Assembly: GCF_000737595.1 (NCBI RefSeq) | Contig: NZ_CP006271.1 | Span: 682,001-746,000 of the forward strand | From: Synechococcus sp. KORDI-52 | GTDB lineage: Bacteria; Cyanobacteriota; Cyanobacteriia; PCC-6307; Cyanobiaceae | Direction of reading: 5' to 3' | DNA length: 64,000 nucleotides | In this document: one piece after another, positions 22,622 through 51,651 of the stretch | Numbering within the stretch: position 1 is the first letter of the stretch | Layout: the number at the start of each line of letters is the position of its first letter | Program-made: the position numbers and the translations under genes | The notes under the pieces: model-generated | Seen by the model: only the letters and a program-made list of their open reading frames with translations | What the model was told of the DNA's origin: nothing | The model's database searches: none

Positions 22622-23842
22622 ATGAAGATGCAAGACGCGATAAAGAGTTTCTACCAAGACCCCTGTCTCCCTGGTTGGGATGACCCCTATTCGGTTTATG
22701 CCCAGCTGAGGGAAGAGTCGCCTATTCATTGGTGCGAAGGGCCTCAAATGTGGATGATTGTCGCCTACCGAGAGGCTTCGGAACAATTAAAAGACCATCG
22801 CTTTAGTCGCCAACAGCACCTCGATAAACTGATATCTCGATTTGGTAATGGACATATTTTTGAAAGGCAAAAGAATGATCTTCCATTTCTGGATGGAAAT
22901 GATCATGCGAGAATTCGTCACCATGTCACCAATGCGTATCGAAGAATTGATTTTCCTGCGTTGAAGGAATTTACGGCCTCGTTTTTGGATTCTCGTCTAA
23001 AGAGTTTGTTGAGTCAAAAACAATTTGACGTTGTGCATGAGGTTGCTGATCTTCTCCCTGTCATGGTGGTCAGTGAGCTGTTGGGAGTCCCTGCTGATCA
23101 GCAAGGACAGGTGGGGCGCAAGGTTGGATCATTTGTGCGTGCGAGAGGACTCACGCAAACAGAATCAACAATGGGGAAAGGAGATGATTCAATCGCATTT
23201 TATGAAGAATACTTTTTGCCGATGATCCATGAAAAGCGCAGCAATCCTTCGTGTGATTTATTGAGTCGTTTGATCGCTGATCCAGAGGAGGGTGTCCATC
23301 TATCGGATGAGCAATTATTGTTGATTATTAGCAGTAACTTCTATTCGGCAAGTGTTTTTACGCTTAGGTTATTGGTTAGTACATTGGCCTGGGTGATGGC
23401 GATGAATCCTGATGCTTATGCTCGAGTCCAGGACAACCGTGAGCTCGTTATACCCGCACTGGAAGAGTTGTTGCGTTGGGATCCTCCTGCTCAGGCCACC
23501 AATGCCAGCGTAGCCTTGGAAGATATCGAAATTGCTGGAAAGCTTGTGAAGGCAGGAGACTCATTATCCGTTCTGGTGGGTGCTGCGAACCGAGACCCCA
23601 AGGCCTTCCCTGATCCTGATCAGTTTTTGCTGGATCGCCGCCCCAATTCTCATGTGAGTTTTGCGCCTGGATTACACCAATGTCTCGGTCTTCAAATCGC
23701 GAGGATGGAAGGTCAGGCTGCGCTGAATGCATTCTGTGATCATTTTTCATCGCTGTCAGTGATCGAGTCTGAGAGTCAACGGTTTGTCGGAGATCGCTTC
23801 CGAGGCTTCGATCGATTGATGCTTGAAGTGTCTCATAAATAG
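22622..23842 (+). CDS. Cytochrome P450 (soluble, atypical I-helix)
   Basis: 406 residues, normal for a soluble bacterial P450. Seen: LDGNDHARIRHHVTNAY (C-helix region), the K-helix ExxR (E282-R285 in EELLRW) and the heme-thiolate loop FAPGLHQCLG with Cys354. The I-helix oxygen-activation motif, usually (A/G)Gx(D/E)T, reads SASVFT in NFYSASVFTLRLL, losing the acid, so catalysis may be atypical. The coding sequence is AT-rich compared with rbgA, suggesting transfer. An MFS transporter lies 535 bases downstream on the same strand; substrate unknown. An ATG at 22628 is an alternative start. Confidence 0.9.
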   Translation: MKMQDAIKSFYQDPCLPGWDDPYSVYAQLREESPIHWCEGPQMWMIVAYREASEQLKDHRFSRQQHLDKLISRFGNGHIFERQKNDLPFLDGNDHARIRHHVTNAYRRIDFPALKEFTASFLDSRLKSLLSQKQFDVVHEVADLLPVMVVSELLGVPADQQGQVGRKVGSFVRARGLTQTESTMGKGDDSIAFYEEYFLPMIHEKRSNPSCDLLSRLIADPEEGVHLSDEQLLLIISSNFYSASVFTLRLLVSTLAWVMAMNPDAYARVQDNRELVIPALEELLRWDPPAQATNASVALEDIEIAGKLVKAGDSLSVLVGAANRDPKAFPDPDQFLLDRRPNSHVSFAPGLHQCLGLQIARMEGQAALNAFCDHFSSLSVIESESQRFVGDRFRGFDRLMLEVSHK

Positions 23843-39951: not shown

Positions 39952-40320
39952 GCGGGAATCCAGGAGCGCTCGAGGTCCCTCATTGTTGGAATACGGATTC
40001 AGATCTGTACAGCTGCGCTGCTGTTTTGGCACCTGGCCATTGGTGTGTTCGCTTGAAGATTGTCGGCAGGGTGGTGTTGGGGGCTTCCTGAAAAACCAGT
40101 GATTTTCCACTTAAATTTTACTGAAACAGGGGCGATTGGTTGGTTTTGCGAGTATATAATCTGCCTGTAAAGCATTGTGCATGGCAGCTATCTTTTCGAG
40201 CTAAGGCCGTCAACTACCCATTGCTATTGTTGCCCTAAATATTGTGTCAATCATTAACTATTGGATGATTGAAGCTATGCTTTGCATTCTTATTGGCTGA
40301 CCTGCGAAAAATTTTGCTAT
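39952..40320. other. Island boundary, non-coding
   Basis: The first about 130 bases keep the core composition; from about 40090 the sequence is strongly AT-rich. No tRNA, direct repeat or integrase is visible at this border. A TATAAT box at 40155-40160 is a candidate -10 for the following gene, but I see no convincing -35 at the right spacing. Confidence 0.45.
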
Positions 40321-42015
40321 ATGCCTAGCACCTTTCCCAAAATAAGCTTTGAATTAATTGCCTCAACGTTGGGGTGTATTGGCGACGCTGTTTTAATTAC
40401 AAGCGAAAGTAGAGAAACTTTGTATTACAATGAGAAGCTCTATAGGATTTGGGGAGTAGATGAAAAGGTGATCTCTGAGTACACTTCGGGGCATAAGGAG
40501 ATAGGCTGTAAATATGCGGATAAATACCTCAAGCATCCTGATGAATTCGTTGAGATTGTTCACCGCGTTCAAGGAACGCTTCAGGAAACCAACGACACGA
40601 TTGAATTTATAGATGGGCGTATATTTAAGCGGCGTGGAGTAGGGATCAAAGATGAGGTCCATGGCATTTGTAGAATATGGTTCTTTACTGATGTAACTGA
40701 AAAAAAATATATTAATACTGACTCGTTGACAAAATGCCTCAATCGAGCTGCTTGGGATGAATTCACGCAAAATCAACCAAGCCATGAAAAGGCCATTGGC
40801 GGCTATGCAGTTGCTGTGATTGATGTCAATAATTTCAAACTTATTAATGATGAATTTGGTCATGAAGCGGGAGACAAAGTTTTAAGAAGGGTAGGCAGCA
40901 CCCTCCTTTCGGTGGCACGAGATCAGGATCTAGTGTTTAGAATTGGTGGTGATGAATTTTGCCTGGTCGTTCCAACACGTCAAGATATTAATCAGTTAAT
41001 AGAGCAGCGGATTGCCCATTGCTTGATCTCATCTGGAATCAATGCGTCTGTAGGGATTGCAATGGCCTCTGAGCATGGTCAGATTTTAGAGGCATTTCGA
41101 AAAGCAGATGTGAACATGCTTCGGTACAAAAAAGATGGCAAGATCAAGGCGCAATCGCTACCCGTTCACCATGTCTTACCACAAGCAAGAATAACAAGAA
41201 CAGACGAAGAGTTGGAGTTGTTGTCAGAATTAAATGTGGCTCTAGAAAAGCGTGAAATTTATCAACTCTATCAGCCAATTGTTGATGTCAACGGTTGTAT
41301 CTCGTCGGTTGAGGTGCTGATGAGATGGAACAAAAATGGTGTGTCTGTTCCACCCAGCACATTCATTCCTCTTGCAGAAGAAAGTGGCTGCATCCATGCG
41401 ATATGGAATGCAAGCTTGCTGGAATCTGTTACTCAATTGGCAGCATGGAAGAAAAAGAATATGGTTCTCCCAGCACTTCGCTTGAATTTCTCTGGCGCTC
41501 AGGTTGAATACGCAAAGAATTCAGGCCATTCCTACGCAAAGCAAATTAGTTCAATATGTGAATTGAATGGAATCCCTCCTTCCTTGATTAGGATTGAGTT
41601 AACGGAGACGGTCTTGCTTCAAGACTTGGCTAAGGCGAAAGAAATTTTTGAAGAGCTTGCCGCAATTGGAGTTCACCTGAGCATTGATGATTATGGAACG
41701 GGATTTTCATCATTATCAGTGATTAAAATGCTGCCCGTCACCAGCATTAAAATTGATGGCTCGTTTGTCCACGGGCTTCCCGACTCAGCGCCGGATTGTT
41801 CAATCGTATCCACCTTAATTTCACTTGCCAGGGCGATGGACATCATTGCGGTAGTGGAATGTGTGGAGTCGTCTGATCAATACGATTACATCAAGAGTCT
41901 TTCTGAAAGTTGCTCGGGTTCGGGCATGTCTTGTGAAACTTTATTCCAAGGCTATCTGTTCTCCAAGCCCGTGCACGCAGAGGCATTAGAACAAATGCTG
42001 CCAATCATCGACTGA
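40321..42015 (+). CDS. PAS-GGDEF-EAL protein (cyclic-di-GMP synthase/phosphodiesterase)
   Basis: 564 residues from the ATG at 40321 (a TTG at 40282 is possible). The PAS domain is about 1-120. In the GGDEF domain the signature is intact (RIGGDEF, G209-F213), with an RxxD inhibitory site (RDQD) five residues before it. The EAL domain has E331 in EVLMRW, LNFSG, IRIELTETVLL, DDYGTGFSS and FQGYLFSKP, so both domains could be active. It makes or degrades c-di-GMP in response to a PAS signal. No transmembrane segment. AT-rich, first gene of the island. Confidence 0.92.
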   Translation: MPSTFPKISFELIASTLGCIGDAVLITSESRETLYYNEKLYRIWGVDEKVISEYTSGHKEIGCKYADKYLKHPDEFVEIVHRVQGTLQETNDTIEFIDGRIFKRRGVGIKDEVHGICRIWFFTDVTEKKYINTDSLTKCLNRAAWDEFTQNQPSHEKAIGGYAVAVIDVNNFKLINDEFGHEAGDKVLRRVGSTLLSVARDQDLVFRIGGDEFCLVVPTRQDINQLIEQRIAHCLISSGINASVGIAMASEHGQILEAFRKADVNMLRYKKDGKIKAQSLPVHHVLPQARITRTDEELELLSELNVALEKREIYQLYQPIVDVNGCISSVEVLMRWNKNGVSVPPSTFIPLAEESGCIHAIWNASLLESVTQLAAWKKKNMVLPALRLNFSGAQVEYAKNSGHSYAKQISSICELNGIPPSLIRIELTETVLLQDLAKAKEIFEELAAIGVHLSIDDYGTGFSSLSVIKMLPVTSIKIDGSFVHGLPDSAPDCSIVSTLISLARAMDIIAVVECVESSDQYDYIKSLSESCSGSGMSCETLFQGYLFSKPVHAEALEQMLPIID

Positions 42016-42199
42016 ACTTACCCAAGGGTTTTGGGTATAAACAGAGGTGAATTTGAAAGGTATCACTATTATCATTTCAATCGATCTTGGTGGATTCGAA
42101 TTGTTCTGCTTGCCTCAATGCAATAATCAGGCCTTGGCCCATTGATCGTAGGATTCACAGCTTACAGAACCATTTCTGCAGAAATGGACAGGCTGGGTC
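42016..42199. other. Intergenic, with an 18-bp palindrome and a weak hairpin
   Basis: ACCCAA (42020-42025) and TTGGGT (42031-42036) form a weak hairpin just after the GGDEF-EAL stop. CCATTTCTGCAGAAATGG at 42170-42187 is a perfect palindrome. Nothing else is recognised here. Confidence 0.4.
42170..42187. repeat. Perfect 18-bp palindrome
   Basis: CCATTTCTGCAGAAATGG reads the same on both strands with no central spacer. Such sites are typical of dimeric regulator operators, though it could also extrude as a hairpin. It lies between the first GGDEF-EAL gene and the region before the five-gene operon. Confidence 0.6.
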
Positions 42200-42361
42200 T
42201 TGTTATGTTTAAGCATCGTCGTTCAGCGGCCGCTAGGCGATGTCAATTTGGATGACTTGGCAATAGGGCCTTTGGGCACAATGTTTATGGTCGCCTGCCA
42301 AAGTCTTGAAATCTTTGATCGGCAATTACATCAAATAGTGGCGACTTCAGTGGCTACTTAA
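42200..42361 (+). CDS. Possible short or truncated ORF, 53 residues
   Basis: From a TTG at 42200 the frame reads LLCLSIVVQRPLGDV..., continues through MFMVACQSLEIFDRQLHQIVA and stops at 42361. It remains open about 12 codons upstream of the TTG. The product has one hydrophobic start and looks protein-like, but no ATG precedes it. It could be a small membrane protein or the tail of a decayed gene. Confidence 0.25.
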   Translation: MLCLSIVVQRPLGDVNLDDLAIGPLGTMFMVACQSLEIFDRQLHQIVATSVAT

Positions 42362-42388
42362 CAGTAGAGAGTTCAGGACATAATTATT

Positions 42389-42748
42389 TTACTCTTTATT
42401 TTGCTCGCAGAACATGAACGAAAGGTTCAAGCCGTTTGGGGTCCTGAAGATAATAGATGGATCCCAGGTTTCTTTATATGGCTTAAAGGTGCCGAGGTTC
42501 AGATGGGTTAGGCCATCTTTTTCGATGATGAATGAAAGACTATTGTTGGCAGGAAGGAATGACACACTGATCGATATGGCTTCTCCATTCGGCAACTCTA
42601 AAGGCTCTTGATCAAGGCCAAAAGGACTGCATTCGTCTTGGATGGTCTCGGCGGGCAAGAGGTTCTCGTAGGGGGTGAGTGGGATCGACGCTAGTTCTTC
42701 CCACTGTCCACTCTCTTTATGTCCGTATGAAACGTGCACGAACAGCAT
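42389..42748 (-). CDS. Hypothetical protein, possibly the 3' part of a frameshifted gene
   Basis: 119 residues (MLFVHVSYGHKES ... LSFMFCEQNKE), beta-rich and protein-like, with no recognised domain. A different reverse frame just upstream (from ATG 42894, MPKIYTINSSKDG ... IDWRKRNPAK) also looks protein-like and runs into it. One extra A in the AAA run near the junction would join them as NPAK-EPQMLFV, giving about 168 residues. Either the gene is frameshifted or the upstream frame is coincidental. Confidence 0.5.
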   Translation of the reverse strand: MLFVHVSYGHKESGQWEELASIPLTPYENLLPAETIQDECSPFGLDQEPLELPNGEAISISVSFLPANNSLSFIIEKDGLTHLNLGTFKPYKETWDPSIIFRTPNGLNLSFMFCEQNKE

Positions 42749-43006
42749 CTGGGGCTCTTTGCAGGGTTGCGCTTACGCCAGTCGATTGAAGCAGCTTGCA
42801 TGGGATGTGTGCAATGAAGCCAATCCAATTGGGCCTCCGATGAATTTAATGGTGAGCCATCTTTGCTGGAGTTGATGGTGTAGATCTTAGGCAAGGCTTA
42901 AATTTTTCTCAATTCTGCGAAGCTGAATAACCTTTTGTGATCAACCTGCTGCATTGTCAGCGAATGATGATGGTGTTGGGACTTCTGTCACTGGATCTCA
43001 GTCTTC

Positions 43007-43026
43007 ATGCAGCCATAAAGCTGCAT
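43007..43026. repeat. 7-bp inverted repeat upstream of the operon
   Basis: ATGCAGC (43007-43013) and GCTGCAT (43020-43026) flank a 6-base loop. No T-run follows. It is a candidate operator or a structured 5' UTR element. Confidence 0.45.
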
Positions 43027-43064
43027 CCCCGCTCACACTGAGGAATCAAGGCTTTGGTCCTTCT

Positions 43065-43097
43065 TTTGATTCAGGCGATGCATACACCTGAATCAAA
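43065..43097. repeat. 11-bp perfect inverted repeat upstream of the operon
   Basis: TTTGATTCAGG (43065-43075) and CCTGAATCAAA (43087-43097) are exact inverted copies separated by 11 bases, centred about 90 bases before the first ATG. The half-site spacing of two helical turns between arm centres suits a dimeric transcription factor. No T-run follows on either side, which argues against a terminator. Confidence 0.65.
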
Positions 43098-43170
43098 GGT
43101 AAAGATTTGTTTCATTTAAGTTGGTACCAATTTGCGTTTCTAAGATTTTTCTTAGGAGCTTTTTTTTTGC

Positions 43171-43803
43171 ATGCCGCTGAGCGACATTGTTGGCAAATCT
43201 TACGCCTTGACGGTTGTCACTCCTCTGTGGTGGTCATGGATCAACCGTTTTTTGTTTGGCTTATATCGATCACTTCCGGCTCAGTTTTTTCCTTTGGTTA
43301 ATCTTGAAATGATCCATTTTGCAAGATGGGTGATTTTGCCAAAAGATCGATGGCCTGGTCGACCAGACAACTTTGAGACGCGTTATTCGTATCTCTTATT
43401 TGCTTCTAATTTTAATGGAACCTGGGATGTTTATTTGGATGAGTTCTCGGATGTAATCTCGTTAGGGATGGATACAATGTGGTATCGAAGTATTGGATTT
43501 CCAAAGTCGATCCCTAGCAGCCCTTTTAAATCTTACATCGACGACAACTCAATTGAGAGTTCTTACTATTACAACGCGCTGCCAGGTTTTTCACTCCGAG
43601 ATGTTGCCAGTGCTTTGAAGGTTCGCAAAGCAATTCATTACTTGGAGGAGCAGATGCTTCATATCAATCAGGATCAGGCTACTTCTGCGGAAACCAAGAA
43701 TGATCTGTTTTTTCAACAGTTTGAGTCTGTCATGACGAATCTAGTGAACCATTTGCCCTCTACAGGAAAGCCGCCTCCGCATTCACCTGACAGCTCTGAT
43801 TGA
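43171..43803 (+). CDS. Unknown protein with HFAR motif (operon gene 1)
   Basis: 210 residues, no recognised domain. The hydrophobic N-terminus (SYALTVVTPLWWSWINRFLFGLY) may be membrane-associated. The core MIHFARWVILP ... YSYLLFASNFNGTWDVYLDEF, followed by ALPGFSLRDVASALKVRKAIHYLEEQ, resembles an alpha-beta sandwich. The HFAR[WF]V plus YLL segment recurs in the next gene. A Pro/Ser-rich C-terminal tail follows. It starts the operon, with 41 bases to gene 2. Confidence 0.8.
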   Translation: MPLSDIVGKSYALTVVTPLWWSWINRFLFGLYRSLPAQFFPLVNLEMIHFARWVILPKDRWPGRPDNFETRYSYLLFASNFNGTWDVYLDEFSDVISLGMDTMWYRSIGFPKSIPSSPFKSYIDDNSIESSYYYNALPGFSLRDVASALKVRKAIHYLEEQMLHINQDQATSAETKNDLFFQQFESVMTNLVNHLPSTGKPPPHSPDSSD

Positions 43804-43844
43804 TTTTCTTTCCTAAAAAAATCATCTAATGGAGGTTTTTAAAG

Positions 43845-44984
43845 ATGCCGAGCAATGAAGCGGGTTTTTATCAGTTGACAGCTTTACTCCCGATCAAGGC
43901 CGGACCATACACCAGTTTGAATCCCGACGAGAGTGATGCAGGGACAAGAAATAATCCGGAATCTTATGTCCGTCACCTTAAAGCTTTCTTGAATCAACTT
44001 TCTGACTCTTTTCTTGAGAATATTGACCTTAAGCAATCAAGCGAAGATCATCGGCATTTATTCGATCACACACGCTGCACACACTTTGCGCGATTTGTTG
44101 TTATCGATCAGCTTTTTTATAATGGACGGCGAAGGAACGACTCCTTGATCGATTTCCTGAGGGTTCTGTTTGTTAATGGTGATTTTTTATCCAAAAAAGA
44201 CGAGATTGACGAACTTGATTTGCCCTATTTGCTGATAACGATTGATTTTGATTGCGATCCCGATTCATCGTCTTGCGTTCAAGACTATCTGTCAGAGCTT
44301 TGGCCTTACGCGAATGAATACTTGACTGAAATATTTCATCACTGCCAGGGTTTTTCTCTTCCATCTCCTCCACAGGACCAACTTTTAGAGCCGCATCATG
44401 CAGATTGGCATGCTTATCACACGGTGGAACGGATGCTTCTTTCTCACGAGGTTGAGACGACCTATCCATACTCCGCCTATTTTTGGGCTGCTGACAAAGT
44501 GCAACGTTGGGACCCATGTACTGATGAAGTATCACCTTCGGCATTTAAAAATCGATGGGGCCTCATCATTATCGGAATTTTGCCCCTTATTTTAGTTGTG
44601 GTGGCAATTCTGATTCTACTTTTTCGTCTTGTGAGTTTGTTATTTAATCCCTTGTATTACACAGCATTCCTCCGATGGGGGCTTGTTAGCTTTGGATTGA
44701 CTGTTACTTCTCTGATTTTATTTATGTTTGCGTGGCGCTATTTTATCGACAGCGCAAATACGCCACTGCCCAAAATCAATGGAGTTGATTTGAAGTCAAT
44801 TTCCAAGGCCTTGTATCTTCAAGCTAAGTTGCTTGAAATGTATGACGATTGGCAAGAGATAGATAGTTTCGATAAAGCCACGCTCCGCCAGCGCTTTGCG
44901 TCCTTCCTGGACGTCAACAAGCCTTCTGATCTGCATTCGCCTTCCTTGCAGCTTGGCAAGTATTTTCAATCAGCTAAGTCATGA
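43845..44984 (+). CDS. Unknown membrane protein with HFAR motif (operon gene 2)
   Basis: 379 residues. The N-terminal soluble domain (1-200) contains TRCTHFARFVVIDQL and LDLPYLLITIDFDCDP ... VQDYLSELW, parallel to the gene 1 core, and ends with YLTEIFHHCQGF. Two adjacent transmembrane helices follow (about 244-268, LIIIGILPLILVVVAILILL; and about 278-300), then a soluble tail. Several His and Cys residues could bind metal or heme (speculative). A GGAGG site precedes the ATG. The stop overlaps the DyP start as ATGA. Confidence 0.8.
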   Translation: MPSNEAGFYQLTALLPIKAGPYTSLNPDESDAGTRNNPESYVRHLKAFLNQLSDSFLENIDLKQSSEDHRHLFDHTRCTHFARFVVIDQLFYNGRRRNDSLIDFLRVLFVNGDFLSKKDEIDELDLPYLLITIDFDCDPDSSSCVQDYLSELWPYANEYLTEIFHHCQGFSLPSPPQDQLLEPHHADWHAYHTVERMLLSHEVETTYPYSAYFWAADKVQRWDPCTDEVSPSAFKNRWGLIIIGILPLILVVVAILILLFRLVSLLFNPLYYTAFLRWGLVSFGLTVTSLILFMFAWRYFIDSANTPLPKINGVDLKSISKALYLQAKLLEMYDDWQEIDSFDKATLRQRFASFLDVNKPSDLHSPSLQLGKYFQSAKS

Positions 44985-46891
44985 CAATAACTTTTGACCG
45001 GCTTGATATCCAGGGAAACATCTTGCTTCCCTATGGGCGATCTTCTTATCCTGTTGTGCGCCACTTTATTTTTCACGTGGTCGACCTGGAAGAGGCTCAG
45101 CATTTTTTGAGTTGGATTCTGCCTTTAATTACTACAGCTCAGTTTTTTCCGTCAAAGCGATCTGTTCAGATGCAGATTCCTGCTGATCAGCTCAGAAAAG
45201 ATAGCCCAGAGCTTCTCTACAATATAGCTTTTACAGCTTCAGGTTTAAAGGCTTTAGGGCTTCCCGACTCAGTTCTCCGTCAATTTCCTGATGCTTTTTT
45301 AGATGGAATGTGGAAACGAGCTCACATGTTGAATGATAATCGTCCTGATTGGGATAACGCTTGGAAGGATGATGAAGACGACAAAATTACTCATATGATG
45401 CTCAGCTTACGTGCGTCATTTAATTCTTGCTTGAAAAGAGTTTGCCTGGAGCGAAAAGATACCTTTTCAAAGTCTGATTATCAGTGTCAGGAGACTTTTG
45501 AGTCTGCACGATCCATGATGCTTGAAAATCTCGACCATGAGTCCCAGCGTTTGTTGGAACAGGCTGCAGACCATGGTTTGGCTGCACTGACAGGGCACAC
45601 GAGCCATGATCCTGATTCGAAATGGCTCGAATGTGAATCATTGGTTCACTCGCGTCTCCAAGACCTTGCTATTTCTGGGAAGAGCGAACACCAGTGTTTG
45701 GCTCAACTTCACAAACAGATTGAGCTAGCTCATGTTCCACCAAATGCAAAGCTTACAGATTTAAGATATAGCGAATATGAACACTTTGGCTTCTTTGATG
45801 GAAGCGGAGACCCTGTTTTTGAGGGCCAATATCCAAAGTCTTTTCAAGACGAGATGGCCCAAGGCCAAGGTCATCTTTCCTGTGGTCAGTGGAGACCCCT
45901 TGCCCCAGGAGAATTTCTTCTGGGTTATCCCAATGAAGCACAAGAAACAACATGTCACCCTATCCCTTACACGTTCAGTAGAAATGGAACATTCATGGCT
46001 GTCCGGAAATTGGAGCAGAATGTATCGGCATTCCATAATGCCCTAGCAGATCAGGCTCCATTGATGCAGAAATGGCTTGATAACGTAGAAACTTCGTCTT
46101 CATCTGATCAATCCTCCGTTGGTGATTCATTCTCTCAAGCCTTAAAGACTCTTCGTGCCAAAATCGTTGGACGTTGGGACGATGGAACGCCATTGGTCCA
46201 TGCTCCAACGTATGAATCATGGCTTCGCTTTCGAAAACGTCTTCTCACCCTGGCGGGTGAAGCTAGAAAGGGTGGCCCAGTTGCCAAAGCAGCCTGGAAA
46301 AAATTCAAGATTCAATTTACACTTTTCACATTCGAGACTGATGATGCAAAAGGAATAAGATGTCCATTCGCTTCGCACATCCGTCGGAGCAACCCTCGCG
46401 ATAGTGGGGATCCGTCGGTCCGGAATGATTCCGATCCATCAGAAACGTCGCAAGCAAGTTCACTGCTTGTGAATCGTCGACGAATCTTAAGGCGTGGTAT
46501 GACCTATGGACCCCCCTCGGGTCTGAAGTGTGAACATTCCAGTCATCATGATCAATCCACTTCTGTTGATTCAGAACGGGGTACTTTTTTCGTTGCCCTA
46601 TGTGCTGACCTTGCCAGACAGTTTGAGTTTATGCAACAGCAGTGGTTGAACTACGGATCTGATTTCAATCTTGGCAATGATATCTGTCCCATTGCTGGTG
46701 CACTTCATCCCTCTGATGCAAGTGAAACGAAGAATACAAAAGTGATGATCTCTACCAACCGGCCCGATGGTTCCCCTGCACTTCCATTTGTTGCCAAGCC
46801 CTCTTCGCAGCCTGTGGTGTGCCGTGGTGGAGCTTATTTCTTTATCCCCAGTCTTTCAGCGATTCGGTTGCTCGCTGAGAACCGTTTCTGA
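44981..46891 (+). CDS. DyP-type heme peroxidase (operon gene 3)
   Basis: 636 residues, in the long DyP class. Seen: the N-terminal FDRLDIQGNILLPYGRSSYP typical of the family, the catalytic Asp273 in GFFDGSGDP (GxxDG), the proximal heme ligand His466 in CPFASHIRRSNPR and distal Arg505 in LRRGMTYGP. All key residues are present, so it should use hydrogen peroxide; physiological substrate unknown. No signal peptide is seen. Insertions relative to shorter DyPs lie around 130-235 and 335-390. It overlaps both neighbours (ATGA before, TGATG after), implying a fixed production ratio with the P450. Confidence 0.93.
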   Translation: MTITFDRLDIQGNILLPYGRSSYPVVRHFIFHVVDLEEAQHFLSWILPLITTAQFFPSKRSVQMQIPADQLRKDSPELLYNIAFTASGLKALGLPDSVLRQFPDAFLDGMWKRAHMLNDNRPDWDNAWKDDEDDKITHMMLSLRASFNSCLKRVCLERKDTFSKSDYQCQETFESARSMMLENLDHESQRLLEQAADHGLAALTGHTSHDPDSKWLECESLVHSRLQDLAISGKSEHQCLAQLHKQIELAHVPPNAKLTDLRYSEYEHFGFFDGSGDPVFEGQYPKSFQDEMAQGQGHLSCGQWRPLAPGEFLLGYPNEAQETTCHPIPYTFSRNGTFMAVRKLEQNVSAFHNALADQAPLMQKWLDNVETSSSSDQSSVGDSFSQALKTLRAKIVGRWDDGTPLVHAPTYESWLRFRKRLLTLAGEARKGGPVAKAAWKKFKIQFTLFTFETDDAKGIRCPFASHIRRSNPRDSGDPSVRNDSDPSETSQASSLLVNRRRILRRGMTYGPPSGLKCEHSSHHDQSTSVDSERGTFFVALCADLARQFEFMQQQWLNYGSDFNLGNDICPIAGALHPSDASETKNTKVMISTNRPDGSPALPFVAKPSSQPVVCRGGAYFFIPSLSAIRLLAENRF

Positions 46892-48804
46892 TGGCCATGG
46901 ACATTCAGATCATTCACCCTGTCGCTTCTGTGTTGATGCAACCGTCCACTTTGTCATCCATGCTTTCAGATGATATGACTGCATTCCTTTACGCTTTGAC
47001 AGCCAATGTCTGGACTTATATTGAGACTTTAGCCTTTAAGCTAAAGCCTTGGCTTAATTCCTTGATTTCTCATTATCAGTTACTCATACTTGCCGCTGCT
47101 CTTGTCTATTTTGTGGCGCGTTCGTCGCGTATGGTTTTTTTATACAGCCTTCAATGGATTGAATTTGCAGTTCGCTTGCTCCGCTTCCTTGGTGATGCGT
47201 TCTCTCAGTTGTTCTGGGTGAATCCCCGTTATCGTACCCGTCGTGCAATTCAATGTTCGTCTCAGGCTAGCTTCTCTTTTGGCTTTATATTTTCTCGATT
47301 TATCAGAGAAGGATTGTGGCTGCCTGTTGACTGGATTCGTTCGCTTGGATTTACTGATGTTTTTGCTCCCGAGCCACTCGCACAAGATAAGTGTTACGAC
47401 AAGAGAGCGTTTTATCCGTCATTCCCTCAGCGCTTCCTCATAGTCAAGAATAAGCACCTCACGATTTATTTTTTTCTGTCATTAATTCGTTTGTTTGTTC
47501 ATCGGTTTACGGTGCCAAGCTGGATACCTGGGATCACCATCAAGGAAAACAGCCACGGTGACGAATTTCCTGTCATGCGACAACTTCATCTCTTGAAGCG
47601 TCATGACGTGGAGGAAGTTTTGGAACGTTCTGAGGATTTTTCTGTCATTTATGGACCAAGAATGTGTGATGTTACACAAAATGGGCGATCCTCAGGTAAT
47701 TTCCTCCTTGGCATGCAAGTGTCATCGTCAACCTACACTCGTGACATATCCAACATGCGATTGATCTTTCGTCGAGATGACGTGGATCGTTGCCAAATGA
47801 TTGCTGCCAACGCATCTCAGGACAGTTTTTTTGTCTTTGAGGAGAGAAAGGACGTGAAGCGTGATCTTGATCGGGGTAAAGTTTTGAGCTTGCCAAATGA
47901 TCTCGTTCAACCTGTTATCAAATCGTTTGTAGAGCACTATTTTGGTATCAGTCTTCCAATGCAGGCACAGAATGCTAATGGAACAACATCAACTGATTTC
48001 AACCTGACTTGGTTCGCCGATCTCTTTTACTACATTTTTTACGATATCAATGGCGATGACAGTCGAGAAGCGGCGTTGGCTTCTGCAGATTTATTGAATC
48101 AGGATCTGGATCGTCAGATTGCCGCTGCAAAGGAACCGTCCATGAATGATTTAGAGAATGTTGACACTGTGCTGCATCGATGCCTAAAGCTACAGCGATC
48201 AGATACCCCTGGCATGGATGATCTATCCATCCGAATCAATCTCACGGGATTTCTTGTGGGAGCCGTGTTGCCTTTGCAAAATACAATCTGTCAGGTGATT
48301 GATCAGTTGCTTGCTCGGCCTCATATTCTTCAACAAGCGGTGACGGCCGCTGATCACAATGAATGGGAGATGTTGCAGGGATTTGTCTTGGAAGCATTGC
48401 GTTTTTCCCCTGGTGATCCTGTGATTTATCGCCATTGCAACACTAAAACCGAGTTGGTCTCCGCTTCCTACCGCTCGCCGGTTTCACCTAACACTTTAGT
48501 GATGGCCTGGAATTCTTCGGCAATGTTTGATCCAAAGTATGTTGATCAACCTTGGCAATTCAATCCAAAACGACAGACCCGTGATTACCTGCACTTTGGT
48601 CATATGCATCACGTCTGTGCTGGAAAATATATTGTGATGTCAGTCATACCTGCTGTTGTTCGTGAACTTCTTTCTTGTTATGAACTGGCTAGAATACCCG
48701 GAAGATGCGGTTATCCTGTTAAAAAAGGAATCACAGTCTCTGAGTTTGATGTTCTTGTTCGCCTCCGCGATTCCGATGATTCCTTGAGGGATAAGTTTCC
48801 ATGA
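46891..48804 (+). CDS. Membrane-anchored cytochrome P450 (operon gene 4)
   Basis: 637 residues, longer than usual. Residues 1-150 hold hydrophobic segments (clearest LLILAAALVYFVA, about 64-76) before the P450 fold. Seen: ExxR as E501-R504 in LEALRFSP and the heme loop HFGHMHHVCAG with Cys576. The I-helix reads LVGAVLPLQNT, lacking the (A/G)GxxT oxygen-activation motif. This recalls P450 domains that rearrange hydroperoxides rather than activate oxygen (family knowledge; assignment inferred). The start overlaps the DyP stop by one base; ATG 46897 is an alternative. The GGDEF-EAL gene follows after 7 bases. Confidence 0.9.
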   Translation: MAMDIQIIHPVASVLMQPSTLSSMLSDDMTAFLYALTANVWTYIETLAFKLKPWLNSLISHYQLLILAAALVYFVARSSRMVFLYSLQWIEFAVRLLRFLGDAFSQLFWVNPRYRTRRAIQCSSQASFSFGFIFSRFIREGLWLPVDWIRSLGFTDVFAPEPLAQDKCYDKRAFYPSFPQRFLIVKNKHLTIYFFLSLIRLFVHRFTVPSWIPGITIKENSHGDEFPVMRQLHLLKRHDVEEVLERSEDFSVIYGPRMCDVTQNGRSSGNFLLGMQVSSSTYTRDISNMRLIFRRDDVDRCQMIAANASQDSFFVFEERKDVKRDLDRGKVLSLPNDLVQPVIKSFVEHYFGISLPMQAQNANGTTSTDFNLTWFADLFYYIFYDINGDDSREAALASADLLNQDLDRQIAAAKEPSMNDLENVDTVLHRCLKLQRSDTPGMDDLSIRINLTGFLVGAVLPLQNTICQVIDQLLARPHILQQAVTAADHNEWEMLQGFVLEALRFSPGDPVIYRHCNTKTELVSASYRSPVSPNTLVMAWNSSAMFDPKYVDQPWQFNPKRQTRDYLHFGHMHHVCAGKYIVMSVIPAVVRELLSCYELARIPGRCGYPVKKGITVSEFDVLVRLRDSDDSLRDKFP

Positions 48805-48811
48805 TTCTGCC

Positions 48812-50644
48812 ATGACTCATCCTGATCTGCCGTCTGGCGACATTCTGAAGGACCAAGGTCAGGTTCGAACGGACATCGTTGACCTTCTCAGGCGAGCTGG
48901 CGTTGAGTTTTTTCGATTTCCTTTGTCACCAGAAGGAAAGGAAATGCAGGACTACTTTAAGTCTGACGACTATATTCATTGCCACTTTACCGATCAGTCG
49001 TTTGTTGAAAGTGGATCAGCAAAAAAGCTGCTTCATGCGTTTTTAGAAGATGTCCATCCCGACGATCGAGACTATATGACAAATGTGGCGGGGCAGTTGT
49101 TGGCCAGTGATGGATATGGTCATGACGTCACGAGCCGCCCCTTTCGTGGTGTTTCGCCGGATGGACGCTGGTCCTGGTATGAAGTACGGATGAGTGTGCG
49201 TCGGCAACAGAATCTTCTGATCTGCGAAGGCCTCATGGTTAATGTCGACCTTCAGCAGGATTCGTTGCTCAAATTACAGGCCAGTCTTTATCGCGATCAA
49301 CTAACTGGTCTTGGAAATCTAAAGAGTGCAGATCCTTTGCTACAGGGTCTAATTTCCGACTCCGTCACTTTGTCACTGGTTTGGATTGATTTAAAGGGTT
49401 TTGGTCGGCTTAACACATACCTTGGACGAGAAACAGGTGACGAAATTCTTCGAGCTGCCGCAAGTGTCTTGCAGAACTGGCTGCAAGAAGGAGATCATTT
49501 GATTCGGCCTGATTCAGATGAGTTTTTAATTATTTTACCTGGTCGTGATTCAAAGGCTGCACAGTCAGCAGCCCTTCAATTGCGCCGGCAATTTCCATCA
49601 TTGTTGGAAAATCTTGGAAACGGCTTTTATGGCCTTGGTTTTCATGCAGGTGTTAGTTCTTTCCCAGAACATGGAGACAATGAAGCTTCAATTTTGGCTC
49701 ATGCAGCGTCTGCCTTGGATCAGGCTAGAAGGATTAATTCTCCCACTGAGCCTGTTGTTGTTTTTGGAGAAGAAATTCCATCAAGAACTGCCGAATTATT
49801 GAATCTGGAAATGAGTCTTCGCCAAGCTGTGCTCCAGGACGAATTTCGTCTTGTTTATCAGCCGCAATGGAATGTTTCAGGTCAGATCATTGGTGCTGAA
49901 GCACTTTTGCGTTGGGAGAGTGGGAGCCTTGGCTCCGTGAGTCCTGGATCGTTTATTCCCCTGGCTGAGCAGACTGGCCAAATCCATTTGATTGGTGAAT
50001 GGGTGATCGAAGCTGCCTGCCGTGCTCTTTCATCATTTCGTGGGGATGAGAACCTACCTCCTCCACTTTCTATTAATATTTCCGCCAGTCAACTTTCTTC
50101 TCGCCAGCACGATGTCTTGGAGACGTTGTTGTTGAATTTGCATCGGTTTGAGGTTCCAGTGCATCTTCTGTATATCGAGATTACTGAGTCAGGATTCTTG
50201 GATGATCTTGCTATTCGACGGTTGAAGGGAATTCATGAAGCTGGTATCCGCCTTCATATTGATGACTTTGGTACTGGTTTTGCTAGTCTTTCCAGTCTTC
50301 TTTCCTTGCCAATTCACTCCCTCAAGCTTGATCAGAGTTTCGTTGCAAATATGCATTCTGCCAATCACAGAGAGCATAGTTCATCTGAACCTGCAGAACC
50401 TTCTGTCGCTATCTTGAATGCGAGTCTTGCTCTTGCATCGTCGATTGGGGCTTCTGCGATCGTTGAAGGGGTTGAGACCGCAGAGCAATTCAGTGTTCTT
50501 CGCGACATGGGATATCAAGTGTTTCAGGGCTATTACTTTTCTCGGCCAATCGAGTTTTCTGAATATTGTCTGCTTCTGGAACATCAGACCGACAAAGCCT
50601 TGCTTTTTTCTTTGCCTGAAGATGGAGCAAATAACCAGAGTTGA
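48812..50644 (+). CDS. PAS-GGDEF(degenerate)-EAL protein, probable c-di-GMP phosphodiesterase (operon gene 5)
   Basis: 610 residues. A PAS-like N-terminus (with VHPDDRDYM) is followed by a GGDEF-like domain whose signature is DSDEF (D234-F238) and which lacks an RxxD site, so synthesis is unlikely. The EAL domain is intact: E363 in EALLRW, NISASQL, IEITES, DDFGTGFAS, the Lys in LKLDQSF, EGVET and FQGYYFSRP. It probably hydrolyses c-di-GMP, perhaps with GTP bound to the dead GGDEF as activator. It sits 7 bases after the P450 stop, so it is part of the operon. Confidence 0.92.
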   Translation: MTHPDLPSGDILKDQGQVRTDIVDLLRRAGVEFFRFPLSPEGKEMQDYFKSDDYIHCHFTDQSFVESGSAKKLLHAFLEDVHPDDRDYMTNVAGQLLASDGYGHDVTSRPFRGVSPDGRWSWYEVRMSVRRQQNLLICEGLMVNVDLQQDSLLKLQASLYRDQLTGLGNLKSADPLLQGLISDSVTLSLVWIDLKGFGRLNTYLGRETGDEILRAAASVLQNWLQEGDHLIRPDSDEFLIILPGRDSKAAQSAALQLRRQFPSLLENLGNGFYGLGFHAGVSSFPEHGDNEASILAHAASALDQARRINSPTEPVVVFGEEIPSRTAELLNLEMSLRQAVLQDEFRLVYQPQWNVSGQIIGAEALLRWESGSLGSVSPGSFIPLAEQTGQIHLIGEWVIEAACRALSSFRGDENLPPPLSINISASQLSSRQHDVLETLLLNLHRFEVPVHLLYIEITESGFLDDLAIRRLKGIHEAGIRLHIDDFGTGFASLSSLLSLPIHSLKLDQSFVANMHSANHREHSSSEPAEPSVAILNASLALASSIGASAIVEGVETAEQFSVLRDMGYQVFQGYYFSRPIEFSEYCLLLEHQTDKALLFSLPEDGANNQS

Positions 50645-50815
50645 TGTGACTTAACTTGTTGTTCGGCTCATGTAATTTAGTTGCCACTTTTGTCATGAAT
50701 TTTGGACTTCCTGTTTTAAGTTGATCGCTAGACCGGCTTGTTGTGACTTGATCTTTAGGCCTTGTTGTCTAATAGCTGTATTTGGCTTGGCTTGAGGCGT
50801 TCCTCGGATTCTGTG
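50645..50815. other. Intergenic after the operon
   Basis: 171 T-rich bases between convergent genes with no clear hairpin plus T-run and no ORF that I can support. Confidence 0.35.
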
Positions 50816-51217
50816 TTATTCCGTGCTGATGCTTACATTGTTTTGGCAGCATTGAGGAGCTCCTCCGTTGGAGACGCTATTGAAAATTGCGTTTTGACTG
50901 GCATCGGTTTCTAGTGTGTTCTGGGCATATCTCGTGGCTCCGGTTTCAGTGCAACGGGATACAGCCTTGAATAATATTTGTCTTTCCAGGTTCTTGATCG
51001 GCGGAGCCTGGTAAGGCCAGTTTGTCTGCTCGTTTTGGTGTTGATGGGCAGGGGGTGGCTCTGAGTATGGTTGATTTGGTCCGGCTACAGGGTGTGCCTT
51101 GGACAGGCTAAAGGTTATTACTCCGATAGCAGTGATTAGACCAGTAATGCCAATAATCAATCCAGTCGTGCTGTTAACTATCCAGTAAGCCCTGATGCTT
51201 CCTGGGTTTTTTCTCAT
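50816..51217 (-). CDS. Hypothetical single-pass membrane protein preceded by a poly-G tract
   Basis: 133 residues. A short basic N-terminus and one transmembrane helix (about 17-39, TGLIIGITGLITAIGVITFSL) are followed by a Pro/Gln-rich stretch and a soluble tail with three Cys (SRCTE, QCCQN). Function unknown. On the coding strand, 16 consecutive G (51224-51239) end 6 bases before the ATG, exactly where a Shine-Dalgarno sequence sits. Expression could therefore vary with tract length. Confidence 0.55.
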   Translation of the reverse strand: MRKNPGSIRAYWIVNSTTGLIIGITGLITAIGVITFSLSKAHPVAGPNQPYSEPPPAHQHQNEQTNWPYQAPPIKNLERQILFKAVSRCTETGATRYAQNTLETDASQNAIFNSVSNGGAPQCCQNNVSISTE

Positions 51218-51223
51218 CGATTG

Positions 51224-51239
51224 CCCCCCCCCCCCCCCC
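51224..51239. repeat. 16-bp poly-C/poly-G homopolymer
   Basis: Sixteen uninterrupted C on the + strand. On the reverse strand the G-run lies 6 bases before the ATG at 51217. In-frame codons upstream of the tract contain no start codon before a stop at 51296-51298, so it is 5' UTR, not coding. Such tracts mutate readily by slipped-strand mispairing; assembly length is also uncertain. Confidence 0.85.
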
Positions 51240-51651
51240 TGTAGGTATGGGTGGGCTTTGGATTGGTGTCGAGAACACTTGTGCGCCGCCTCTGTTTATT
51301 GAATTGCATTAATGGTGTTTAGCTATGTTGTTAATTCTTCTGCGTTAAGGATTTTTGTGCATTTGGAGACTCATGGCAAATAATTGTCTCTCCTGGGTTG
51401 GCTTTCGAGATCTTCGCATTGTGTTTTCCATCTGTCGCTTCGTGCCTGACCTTTCTCCACTCGAGGCAATAACTGCTTAGGCTTTTTTAGGCGCTTTCTC
51501 GCCACCAGTCTGCTATGTCGTTTATAGGCGTCTGTGACGTTCTTTCTCGCACAATTGTCGTAAGGCTTTGTGAATGTTGCTGTTCATCGGCTGACGTTGA
51601 TCGCCCGTATGTTCATGGTTATGGAGTCGTGATTCATCGGATTTGACGCTC
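51240..51651. other. Intergenic upstream of mscS, no gene seen
   Basis: About 410 bases of AT-rich to mixed sequence with short frames only. It probably carries divergent promoters for the reverse-strand membrane protein and for mscS. No repeat or RNA gene recognised. Confidence 0.35.

Follow-up and report, generated by a model that had tools for sequence, protein, structure and literature searches.

Two classic kinds of haem catalyst rearrange fatty-acid hydroperoxides: catalase-related proteins and hydroperoxide-converting cytochrome P450s. Here we analyse a five-gene operon of Synechococcus sp. KORDI-52 that combines a P450 with a DyP-type peroxidase, two HFAR domain proteins and a signalling protein with an EAL domain. 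The operon lies within a window of 64,000 nucleotides (contig NZ_CP006271.1, positions 682,001 to 746,000), the whole stretch of DNA that was analysed. It was compared with nine loci fetched from other genomes of its family, the Cyanobiaceae, and with 80 distant loci, the best of 453 relatives found by scanning 84,980 species genomes with the HFAR C-terminal domain. The comparison indicates that the operon is the local form of a bacterial gene cluster that is widespread and seems not to have been described.

Hydroperoxide-converting P450s and catalase-related proteins both partner haem dioxygenases (PMC13049297, PMC9579011). Nostoc punctiforme has a linoleate 10S-dioxygenase and a catalase-related 10S-hydroperoxide lyase (Brash et al. 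2014, as cited in PMC13049297 and PMC9579011). This is a haem dioxygenase of the animal-peroxidase superfamily with a catalase-related hydroperoxide enzyme, encoded by separate genes, and the same two kinds of gene flank the HFAR-DyP pair in some filamentous cyanobacteria. The passages on the Nostoc system in these sources mention no HFAR or DyP. The window encodes a P450, and no gene for a dioxygenase was detected. In the fungal dioxygenase-P450 enzymes (linoleate diol, allene oxide and epoxyalcohol synthases) and in the cascade from cyclooxygenase to thromboxane or prostacyclin synthase, a peroxide-forming haem protein is coupled to a hydroperoxide-acting P450, in fungi by fusion (PMC13049297). 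Unlike these, the KORDI-52 set is bacterial, its haem partner is a DyP with HFAR and no cyclooxygenase-like domain, and its substrate is one that we infer.

Three further systems resemble neighbours of HFAR-DyP in other bacteria. The coral fusion of a catalase-related allene oxide synthase (AOS) or hydroperoxide lyase with a lipoxygenase (PDB 1u5u, 3dy5; PMC5617202) is the nearest PDB match, by profile and by VIA-align fold, of the catalase-like protein (CAT) of the relatives; CAT was not found in the KORDI-52 genome, where a P450 stands in its place. The Pseudomonas aeruginosa oleate-diol synthase FadCcp belongs to the di-haem, RoxA-related fatty-acid enzymes (PMC4496055). The di-haem protein (CCP) of 28 of the 80 distant loci resembles the FadCcp enzymes (PA2077/PA2078) in kind, and no CCP was found in the KORDI-52 genome. 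Finally, cyanobacteria have the alpha-dioxygenases CalDOX and LepDOX, enzymes of a type that forms 2-hydroperoxy fatty acids (PMC8720084). Haem-peroxidase neighbours (APX) in three relatives are closest to plant alpha-dioxygenases, but no such gene was found in the KORDI-52 genome, and a word search of PMC8720084 returned none of "gene cluster", "operon" and "neighbor". In openly licensed papers, subscription papers being mostly outside the search, we recognised no description of HFAR, of the HFAR-DyP pair or of its P450 fusion, in keeping with the initial annotation, which knew of no such system.

A conserved pair of HFAR and DyP genes

HFAR1 is present in 10 of 400 family genomes (3 of 59 genera). 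Among these ten, with the window counted, the order HFAR1-HFAR2-DyP is found in nine, a full P450 in seven and P450 fragments in one. Gene order is kept across diverged genomes, as in G330, whose HFAR1 has 46% identity. Two genomes (G607 and G594) carry the HFAR-HFAR-DyP core with no P450 or EAL gene in the roughly 19 kb taken around each, and in G696, a genome 64% complete, a 7 kb contig carries a short HFAR1-P450 open frame with an EAL gene after it. Outside the family, HFAR is followed by a DyP gene on the same strand in 80/80 distant loci, 9-157 nt after the HFAR domain; this spacing was measured from domain to domain because the starts of the open reading frames (ORFs) are mechanical. The distant loci span ten phyla: Pseudomonadota (28), Actinomycetota (24), Acidobacteriota (13), Cyanobacteriota (5), Chloroflexota (5) and five others with one each. 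Four of them (L046, the Stenomitos frigidus contig NZ_PVWK01000153.1, with L047, L048 and L073) are the same places as the cyanobacterial stretches L028, L032, L031 and L033, respectively. In other cyanobacteria a tandem HFAR protein adjoins DyP in 11 of 12 stretches, the contig of the twelfth (L035) ending inside HFAR. The initial annotation had read the genes as a co-oriented unit, to be abandoned if homologues proved scattered with no conserved neighbourhood. They are not scattered, and the recurrence in the family and in the distant loci bears the unit out.

HFAR1 has no Pfam match and HFAR2 has insignificant matches only (E 0.29 and 0.59). Against hidden Markov models (HMMs) of the halves of tandem HFAR proteins, HFAR1 scores E 1.7e-15 with the C-terminal domain and 1.8e-14 with the N-terminal domain, while HFAR2 scores 5e-10 with the N-terminal domain and only 0.013 with the C-terminal one. 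Judged from these matches, HFAR1 and HFAR2 are split halves of one domain family that forms a tandem protein elsewhere. The two had been described as unknown proteins. They do lack a curated family, no Pfam family being common at E 0.1 to any pair among 45 tandem members (each of 11 families matches a single one), but they are not two separate kinds: both match the same HMM set, which rules out a pair of unrelated proteins. A search for sequence relatives among known structures gave a best E of 0.15, which is not credible. HFAR2 also has a strongly hydrophobic stretch at aa 233-298, absent from HFAR1, and this likely membrane segment fits the earlier proposal that one partner is membrane-anchored.

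The split HFAR-HFAR-DyP arrangement of the window recurs on a Granulicella plasmid, and a single HFAR stands beside DyP on Gloeothece and Nostoc plasmids. In Gloeothece verrucosa (L038) the single HFAR and DyP lie downstream of genes for a TOMM leader-peptide-binding protein and a SagB-type dehydrogenase. A Rhizobium leguminosarum plasmid (L044) encodes HFAR-HFAR-DyP as one 976-residue chain near restriction-modification genes, with no P450 or CAT within 12 kb.

The fold of HFAR was approached through a model of a tandem relative, not of the window proteins, built from 45 sequences (predicted local distance difference test, pLDDT, 87.2). The model has two beta-alpha-beta-beta-alpha-beta units with a long helix between them. 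Its best structural match is the SchA-like WhiE-ORFI (Z 14.1 over 225 residues, root-mean-square deviation (rmsd) 3.8), followed by Abx(+)O, a polyketide decarboxylase (Z 11.2 over 197 residues, rmsd 4.4), two putative monooxygenases (Z near 9) and single ABM-type domains (Z about 7 or lower). The predicted HFAR fold is ABM/SchA-like, a tandem ferredoxin-like alpha+beta fold, as known from this modelled relative.

The peroxidase, the P450 and the catalase-like protein

The window DyP matches Pfam DyP_N at 2e-13 and Dyp_perox_C at 7e-4. It scores 51 bits with PF21105 (cut-off 27.5), 19.9 bits with PF20628, just below the cut-off of 20, and 70 bits with TIGR01413, below the cut-off of 100.5; against DyP chains of known structure the best E is 9e-27. 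We aligned DyP sequences from 78 of the 80 distant loci and 15 others, leaving out L101, in which DyP is fused to CAT, and the incomplete L112. The Asp of GxxDG, the His of CPxxxHxRR and a later Arg, which we take to be the catalytic Asp, proximal His and distal Arg, are kept in 93/93 rows including the window, so the enzyme is presumably active. At 636 aa it is longer than the DyP matches of most relatives (about 450-510 aa) and therefore carries large insertions. To our knowledge, the natural substrates of DyP peroxidases are largely unknown.

The P450 matches Pfam p450 at 3e-7 (PF00067, 30.2 bits, cut-off 22.8), and with the DyP it confirms the oxidative set of haem enzymes named in the initial annotation. 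Its ExxR motif reads EALR and its haem-ligand region HVCAG, with the Gly of FxxGxHxCxG replaced by Met, and a hydrophobic stretch covers aa 57-84. The haem Cys is present in 11/11 HFAR-linked P450s. The acid of the I-helix acid-alcohol pair is absent in 11/11, with Pro at or beside its place; the alcohol is absent in the window P450, and Thr is kept in 5/11. Two other aligned P450s, not linked to HFAR, both keep the acid. The lack of an oxygen-activation motif had been proposed earlier and is seen in this alignment as the missing acid. By sequence, then, the window P450 does not have the acid-alcohol pair of an O2-activating monooxygenase.

Two further P450s were noted. One lies elsewhere in the window (22622-23842, +; PF00067 E 1e-16), in another patch of low GC content; its I-helix region reads SSNFYSASVF and, by eye, it also seems to have no acid-alcohol pair. 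The other, on a Methylobacterium radiotolerans plasmid (L045), is a related P450 that keeps the I-helix acid and lies two genes after a di-haem cytochrome c peroxidase gene; the 13 kb stretch has no HFAR or DyP match.

In the distant loci, the usual companion of HFAR-DyP is CAT, present in 64/80 and no more than 100 nt from the block in 55 of the 64. The HMMs for this and the other neighbour genes (APX, CCP, GMC oxidoreductase and a small protein) were built from one to three seeds each. Compared with the PDB, the CAT profile finds coral AOS first (3e-8), an unrelated repeat protein at 5e-6 and true catalases at 0.0035 at best. A model of one member (pLDDT 90.3) aligns by VIA-align with AOS-lipoxygenase at Z 28.3 (303 residues, rmsd 3.0), AOS at Z 27.9 (308 residues, rmsd 3.4), a 33 kDa mycobacterial catalase-related protein at Z 27.0 and true catalases at Z 25-26. 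In an alignment of 36 members, the R-x3-Y motif, presumably the proximal haem motif, is invariant, the presumed distal-His position is changed in 14, and the preceding residue is Thr in 32. Thr beside the distal His is a feature of coral AOS. Pfam catalase matches are weak in some members and absent in others; we rejected a plain catalase on account of the AOS-like profile and fold and the changes at the presumed distal-His position. The CAT of the relatives is thus predicted to be AOS-like, with a catalase fold and the proximal R-x3-Y. In nine loci (L092, L095, L102, L103, L105, L110, L111, L114 and also L056) the block lies between two CAT genes; the upstream CAT has a length of only about 350 aa and, in the cases that were aligned, bears a distant likeness to the one downstream.

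A full P450 accompanies HFAR and DyP in seven family loci and in four alphaproteobacterial plasmid loci (Novosphingobium, Sulfitobacter, Pararhizobium and Skermanella), and the stretches of these loci contain no CAT match. In Novosphingobium, Sulfitobacter and Pararhizobium, P450-HFAR-HFAR-DyP is one chain of about 1,420 to 1,620 residues. CAT is fused to the N-terminal end of tandem HFAR in two cyanobacteria (L025 and L026), the same end as in the P450 fusions, and in L101 it follows DyP in one open frame. By gene content, the P450 takes the place of the catalase-like protein in the window's family and in some alphaproteobacteria. Three of the 80 distant loci contain P450 ORFs, which lie at more than 2 kb from the block; two of the three loci have CAT, and the one P450 that was aligned is of the ordinary AGHETT type. 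In a DyP tree without an outgroup, made from 71 of 97 rows (26 were dropped for speed, and Sulfitobacter is not represented), P450-linked DyPs fall in two separate places. Two partner changes suffice if rows with neither partner are ignored, and five are needed for the P450 label if such rows are counted.

Organisation of the operon in the window

The coordinates of the five genes, all on the + strand of the ORF list, and their intergenic distances of 41, -4, -1 and +7 were reproduced exactly as first annotated (Table 1). The GC content of the operon is 0.45 against 0.57 for the window. That of the G253 operon is also 0.45 (flanks 0.56 and 0.52), and that of the G330 operon is 0.69, like its flanks. 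Low-GC patches occur throughout the window, for example at 13-15, 23-25, 40-51 and 60-62 kb, mostly at 0.42-0.50 per kb, with values elsewhere mostly about 0.60-0.67.

Table 1. Genes and upstream element of the KORDI-52 operon (window positions).
Feature	Position	Strand	Description	Basis
Hairpin with T-run, AGGAG in stem	43136-43168	+	just 5' of HFAR1 start	fold prediction
HFAR1	43171-43803	+	one HFAR domain, closest to the C-terminal half of tandem HFAR proteins	HMM match
HFAR2	43845-44984	+	single HFAR domain and hydrophobic hairpin region, most like the tandem's N-terminal half	
DyP-type peroxidase	44981-46891	+	636 aa; GxxDG Asp, CPxxxHxRR His, later Arg	Pfam and alignment
Cytochrome P450	46891-48804	+	hydrophobic segment at the N-terminus; has haem Cys and ExxR, lacks the I-helix acid and alcohol	
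PAS-GGDEF-EAL protein	48812-50644	+	probable c-di-GMP phosphodiesterase by sequence; optional part	

The upstream hairpin, in which the stem is followed by nine T, is a candidate terminator- or attenuator-like or ribosome-binding-site-sequestering element (fold z -1.8; 10 of 200 shuffles are equally stable). It is not kept in that form in G253, and in G573 (L133) a different hairpin occupies its place. A search of 42000-51300 with Rfam at gathering scores found no known RNA element.

The fifth gene encodes a probable cyclic di-GMP (c-di-GMP) phosphodiesterase, as judged from its Pfam matches to EAL (2e-60; PF00563, 204.5 bits) and GGDEF (3e-22), PAS_3 falling below the cut-off. The EAL motif is present (EALLRW) and the GGDEF motif is degenerate (SDEF). 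A second GGDEF-EAL gene lies directly 5' of the operon (40282-42015, +) and, unlike the operon's, has an intact GGDEF motif. The initial annotation tied the whole set to the level of c-di-GMP. An EAL gene is present in 6 of the 10 family loci, and an EAL-type ORF anywhere in the locus in 2 of the 80 distant ones, and on these counts we rejected c-di-GMP as a core part of the cluster. The EAL gene may have come to its place by accident. The earlier interpretation is supported in part: a conserved unit, a haem set, a likely membrane segment, a P450 without the acid and no described counterpart in the papers searched. To it are added the kinship of the HFAR proteins, the P450 at the place where others have an AOS-like catalase, and dioxygenase-type haem genes beside the module in most other lineages analysed.

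Proposed function, alternatives and significance

Two haem genes of dioxygenase type stand beside HFAR-DyP in the distant loci: APX, an animal-haem-peroxidase gene, in 44/80 and CCP, which is weakly RoxA-like, in 28/80. They occur together in 1/80 and are both absent in 9/80, four of these nine loci being on contigs shorter than 10 kb, so that APX and CCP look like alternatives, in counts of raw loci uncorrected for kinship. For three APX proteins, those of Stenomitos, Streptomyces and Sedimenticola, the nearest match is plant fatty-acid alpha-dioxygenase (E 5e-121, 2e-112 and 2e-54), the assignment of APX to this type resting on these 3 of 44 APX loci. A small protein of about 148 aa with no Pfam match occurs in 72/80 distant loci and forms one open frame with HFAR in ten, which are actinobacterial. 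No match to the small protein, CAT, APX or CCP was found in the nine fetched family loci or the window.

Since CAT and P450 alternate in a cluster that mostly also holds a dioxygenase-type gene, a lipid hydroperoxide is the simplest reading of the substrate. We therefore propose, and consider it evenly balanced whether this is correct, that the operon encodes a membrane-tethered oxylipin-type module converting lipid hydroperoxides of fatty-acid type into oxylipins. The comparison shows the order of the genes and its conservation, the exchange of partners, the active-site residues and, as predictions, the folds of relatives; the substrate, the direction of flow, assembly into a complex and location at the membrane are what we infer. 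HFAR1 and HFAR2 would be paired ferredoxin-like (ABM/SchA-like) partners, with HFAR2 and the N-terminus of the P450 possibly tethering the set to the membrane. DyP would form or handle peroxide. The P450, without the O2-activating residue, would isomerise, dehydrate or cleave the hydroperoxide with no NADPH or O2, as CYP74 or thromboxane synthase does. In most other bacteria analysed, the last step would fall to a catalase-fold protein like coral AOS, and the hydroperoxide would be made by the neighbouring alpha-dioxygenase-type or RoxA-like di-haem enzyme. The EAL protein is likely a local regulatory add-on.

Several observations weigh against this proposal. The role of DyP, which presumably either reduces the hydroperoxide or forms it, is its weakest link, and we know of no DyP that is a fatty-acid dioxygenase, DyPs being known as peroxidases. 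No dedicated hydroperoxide source is in evidence in the KORDI-52 genome (2.57 Mb, one contig), because no gene of a dioxygenase family was found: searches for animal haem peroxidase (PF03098), CCP and CAT were negative with working positive controls, that for CCP resting on a protein search as the NF040606 profile proved insensitive, and a search for lipoxygenase (PF00305), run without a positive control, gave no match. The hydroperoxide would in that case come from DyP/HFAR or from non-enzymatically photo-oxidised lipid, or the substrate differs. CAT has no match in 16/80 distant loci, some on short contigs, and loci with the core alone occur in 2 of the 10 family genomes, Granulicella, Nostoc ATCC 53789 and Rhizobium. 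The Z scores of the CAT model to true catalases are only 2 to 3 below those to AOS, and in the Foldseek ranking AOS comes second, behind the mycobacterial catalase-related protein. For CCP, dioxygenation of fatty acids is suggested by analogy only. The neighbours do not prove a common pathway, given the GMC oxidoreductase and the peptide genes of Gloeothece, whose HFAR-DyP pair, with neither CAT nor P450, is possibly another use of the pair. The predicted HFAR fold also fits polyketide-type chemistry, the module could be protective rather than biosynthetic, and control by c-di-GMP is suggested by an EAL gene in only some of the family loci.

In the protective alternative, lipid and hydrogen peroxides would be destroyed at the membrane, with DyP serving as peroxidase and the catalase-like protein or P450 as scavengers, so that the photosynthetic cell is guarded from oxidative damage and no signal is made. 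It accords with the full retention of the DyP Asp, His and Arg, the catalase fold of the usual partner and the lack of a detected dioxygenase partner in the KORDI-52 genome. The changes at the presumed distal-His position in 14 of 36 catalase-like partners argue against it, as does the patchiness of the module (10 of 400 family genomes), which would be odd for a general stress defence. Further, because APX or CCP is present in 71/80 distant loci and the three tested APX are alpha-dioxygenase-like, the hydroperoxides are probably made nearby and not merely removed. We consider detoxification unlikely.

A role in tailoring a specialised metabolite seems to us improbable to a similar degree. Here the substrate would be polyketide-like, peptide or aromatic, and HFAR would be a cofactor-free decarboxylase- or cyclase-like domain that works on it together with DyP and a P450 driven by peroxide. 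The structural matches of the HFAR model to WhiE-ORFI and Abx(+)O speak for this, along with the GMC oxidoreductase in 26/80 distant loci, a SARP regulator adjoining the Novosphingobium fusion gene, and the TOMM and SagB-type genes 5' of the Gloeothece pair. However, Gloeothece is the only one of nine plasmid regions in which polyketide or peptide synthesis genes are named, the conserved neighbours with scanned representatives include none for such synthesis, and the alpha-dioxygenase-like genes point to fatty acids.

A bolder possibility, which we think rather unlikely, is that HFAR-DyP is a new lipid-hydroperoxide synthase. HFAR-DyP-P450 would then make up a complete oxylipin synthase of bacteria that works like the fungal dioxygenase-P450 fusions and the cyclooxygenase-thromboxane pair but shares no sequence kinship with them, with CAT and P450 swapped as between corals and plants. 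In its specific form, with HFAR-DyP as a new fatty-acid dioxygenase and HFAR/DyP/P450 as a complete dioxygenase-P450 oxylipin synthase analogous to the fungal fusions, we regard the idea as slightly less likely still. The single P450-HFAR-HFAR-DyP chains of three alphaproteobacteria, with no APX or CCP match within about 12 kb of each, are consistent with it, and so is the KORDI-52 genome, where the same three parts stand alone and other dioxygenase families were not found. Against this, DyPs are known as peroxidases, and the separate dioxygenase-type gene beside the module in most distant loci would be redundant. An accidental operon of unrelated genes, to which patchy presence and low GC might point, is so improbable that we dismiss it for HFAR-HFAR-DyP-P450, whose order is conserved in diverged family genomes and, for HFAR-DyP, across ten phyla.

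A cluster of at least ten bacterial phyla seems to have escaped description; that the protein which marks it belongs to no named family may be the reason. Oxidised fatty acids, which the cluster probably makes or converts, are the chemistry behind plant and animal lipid signals. If oxylipin production is confirmed, the cluster would add a further haem pathway to those by which bacteria can form lipid mediators, next to lipoxygenase and the P. aeruginosa diol synthase. A catalase fold and a P450 alternating at a single position would then clearly exemplify in nature the convergence known from corals and plants. DyP peroxidases, meanwhile, gain a physiological partner set that can be tested.

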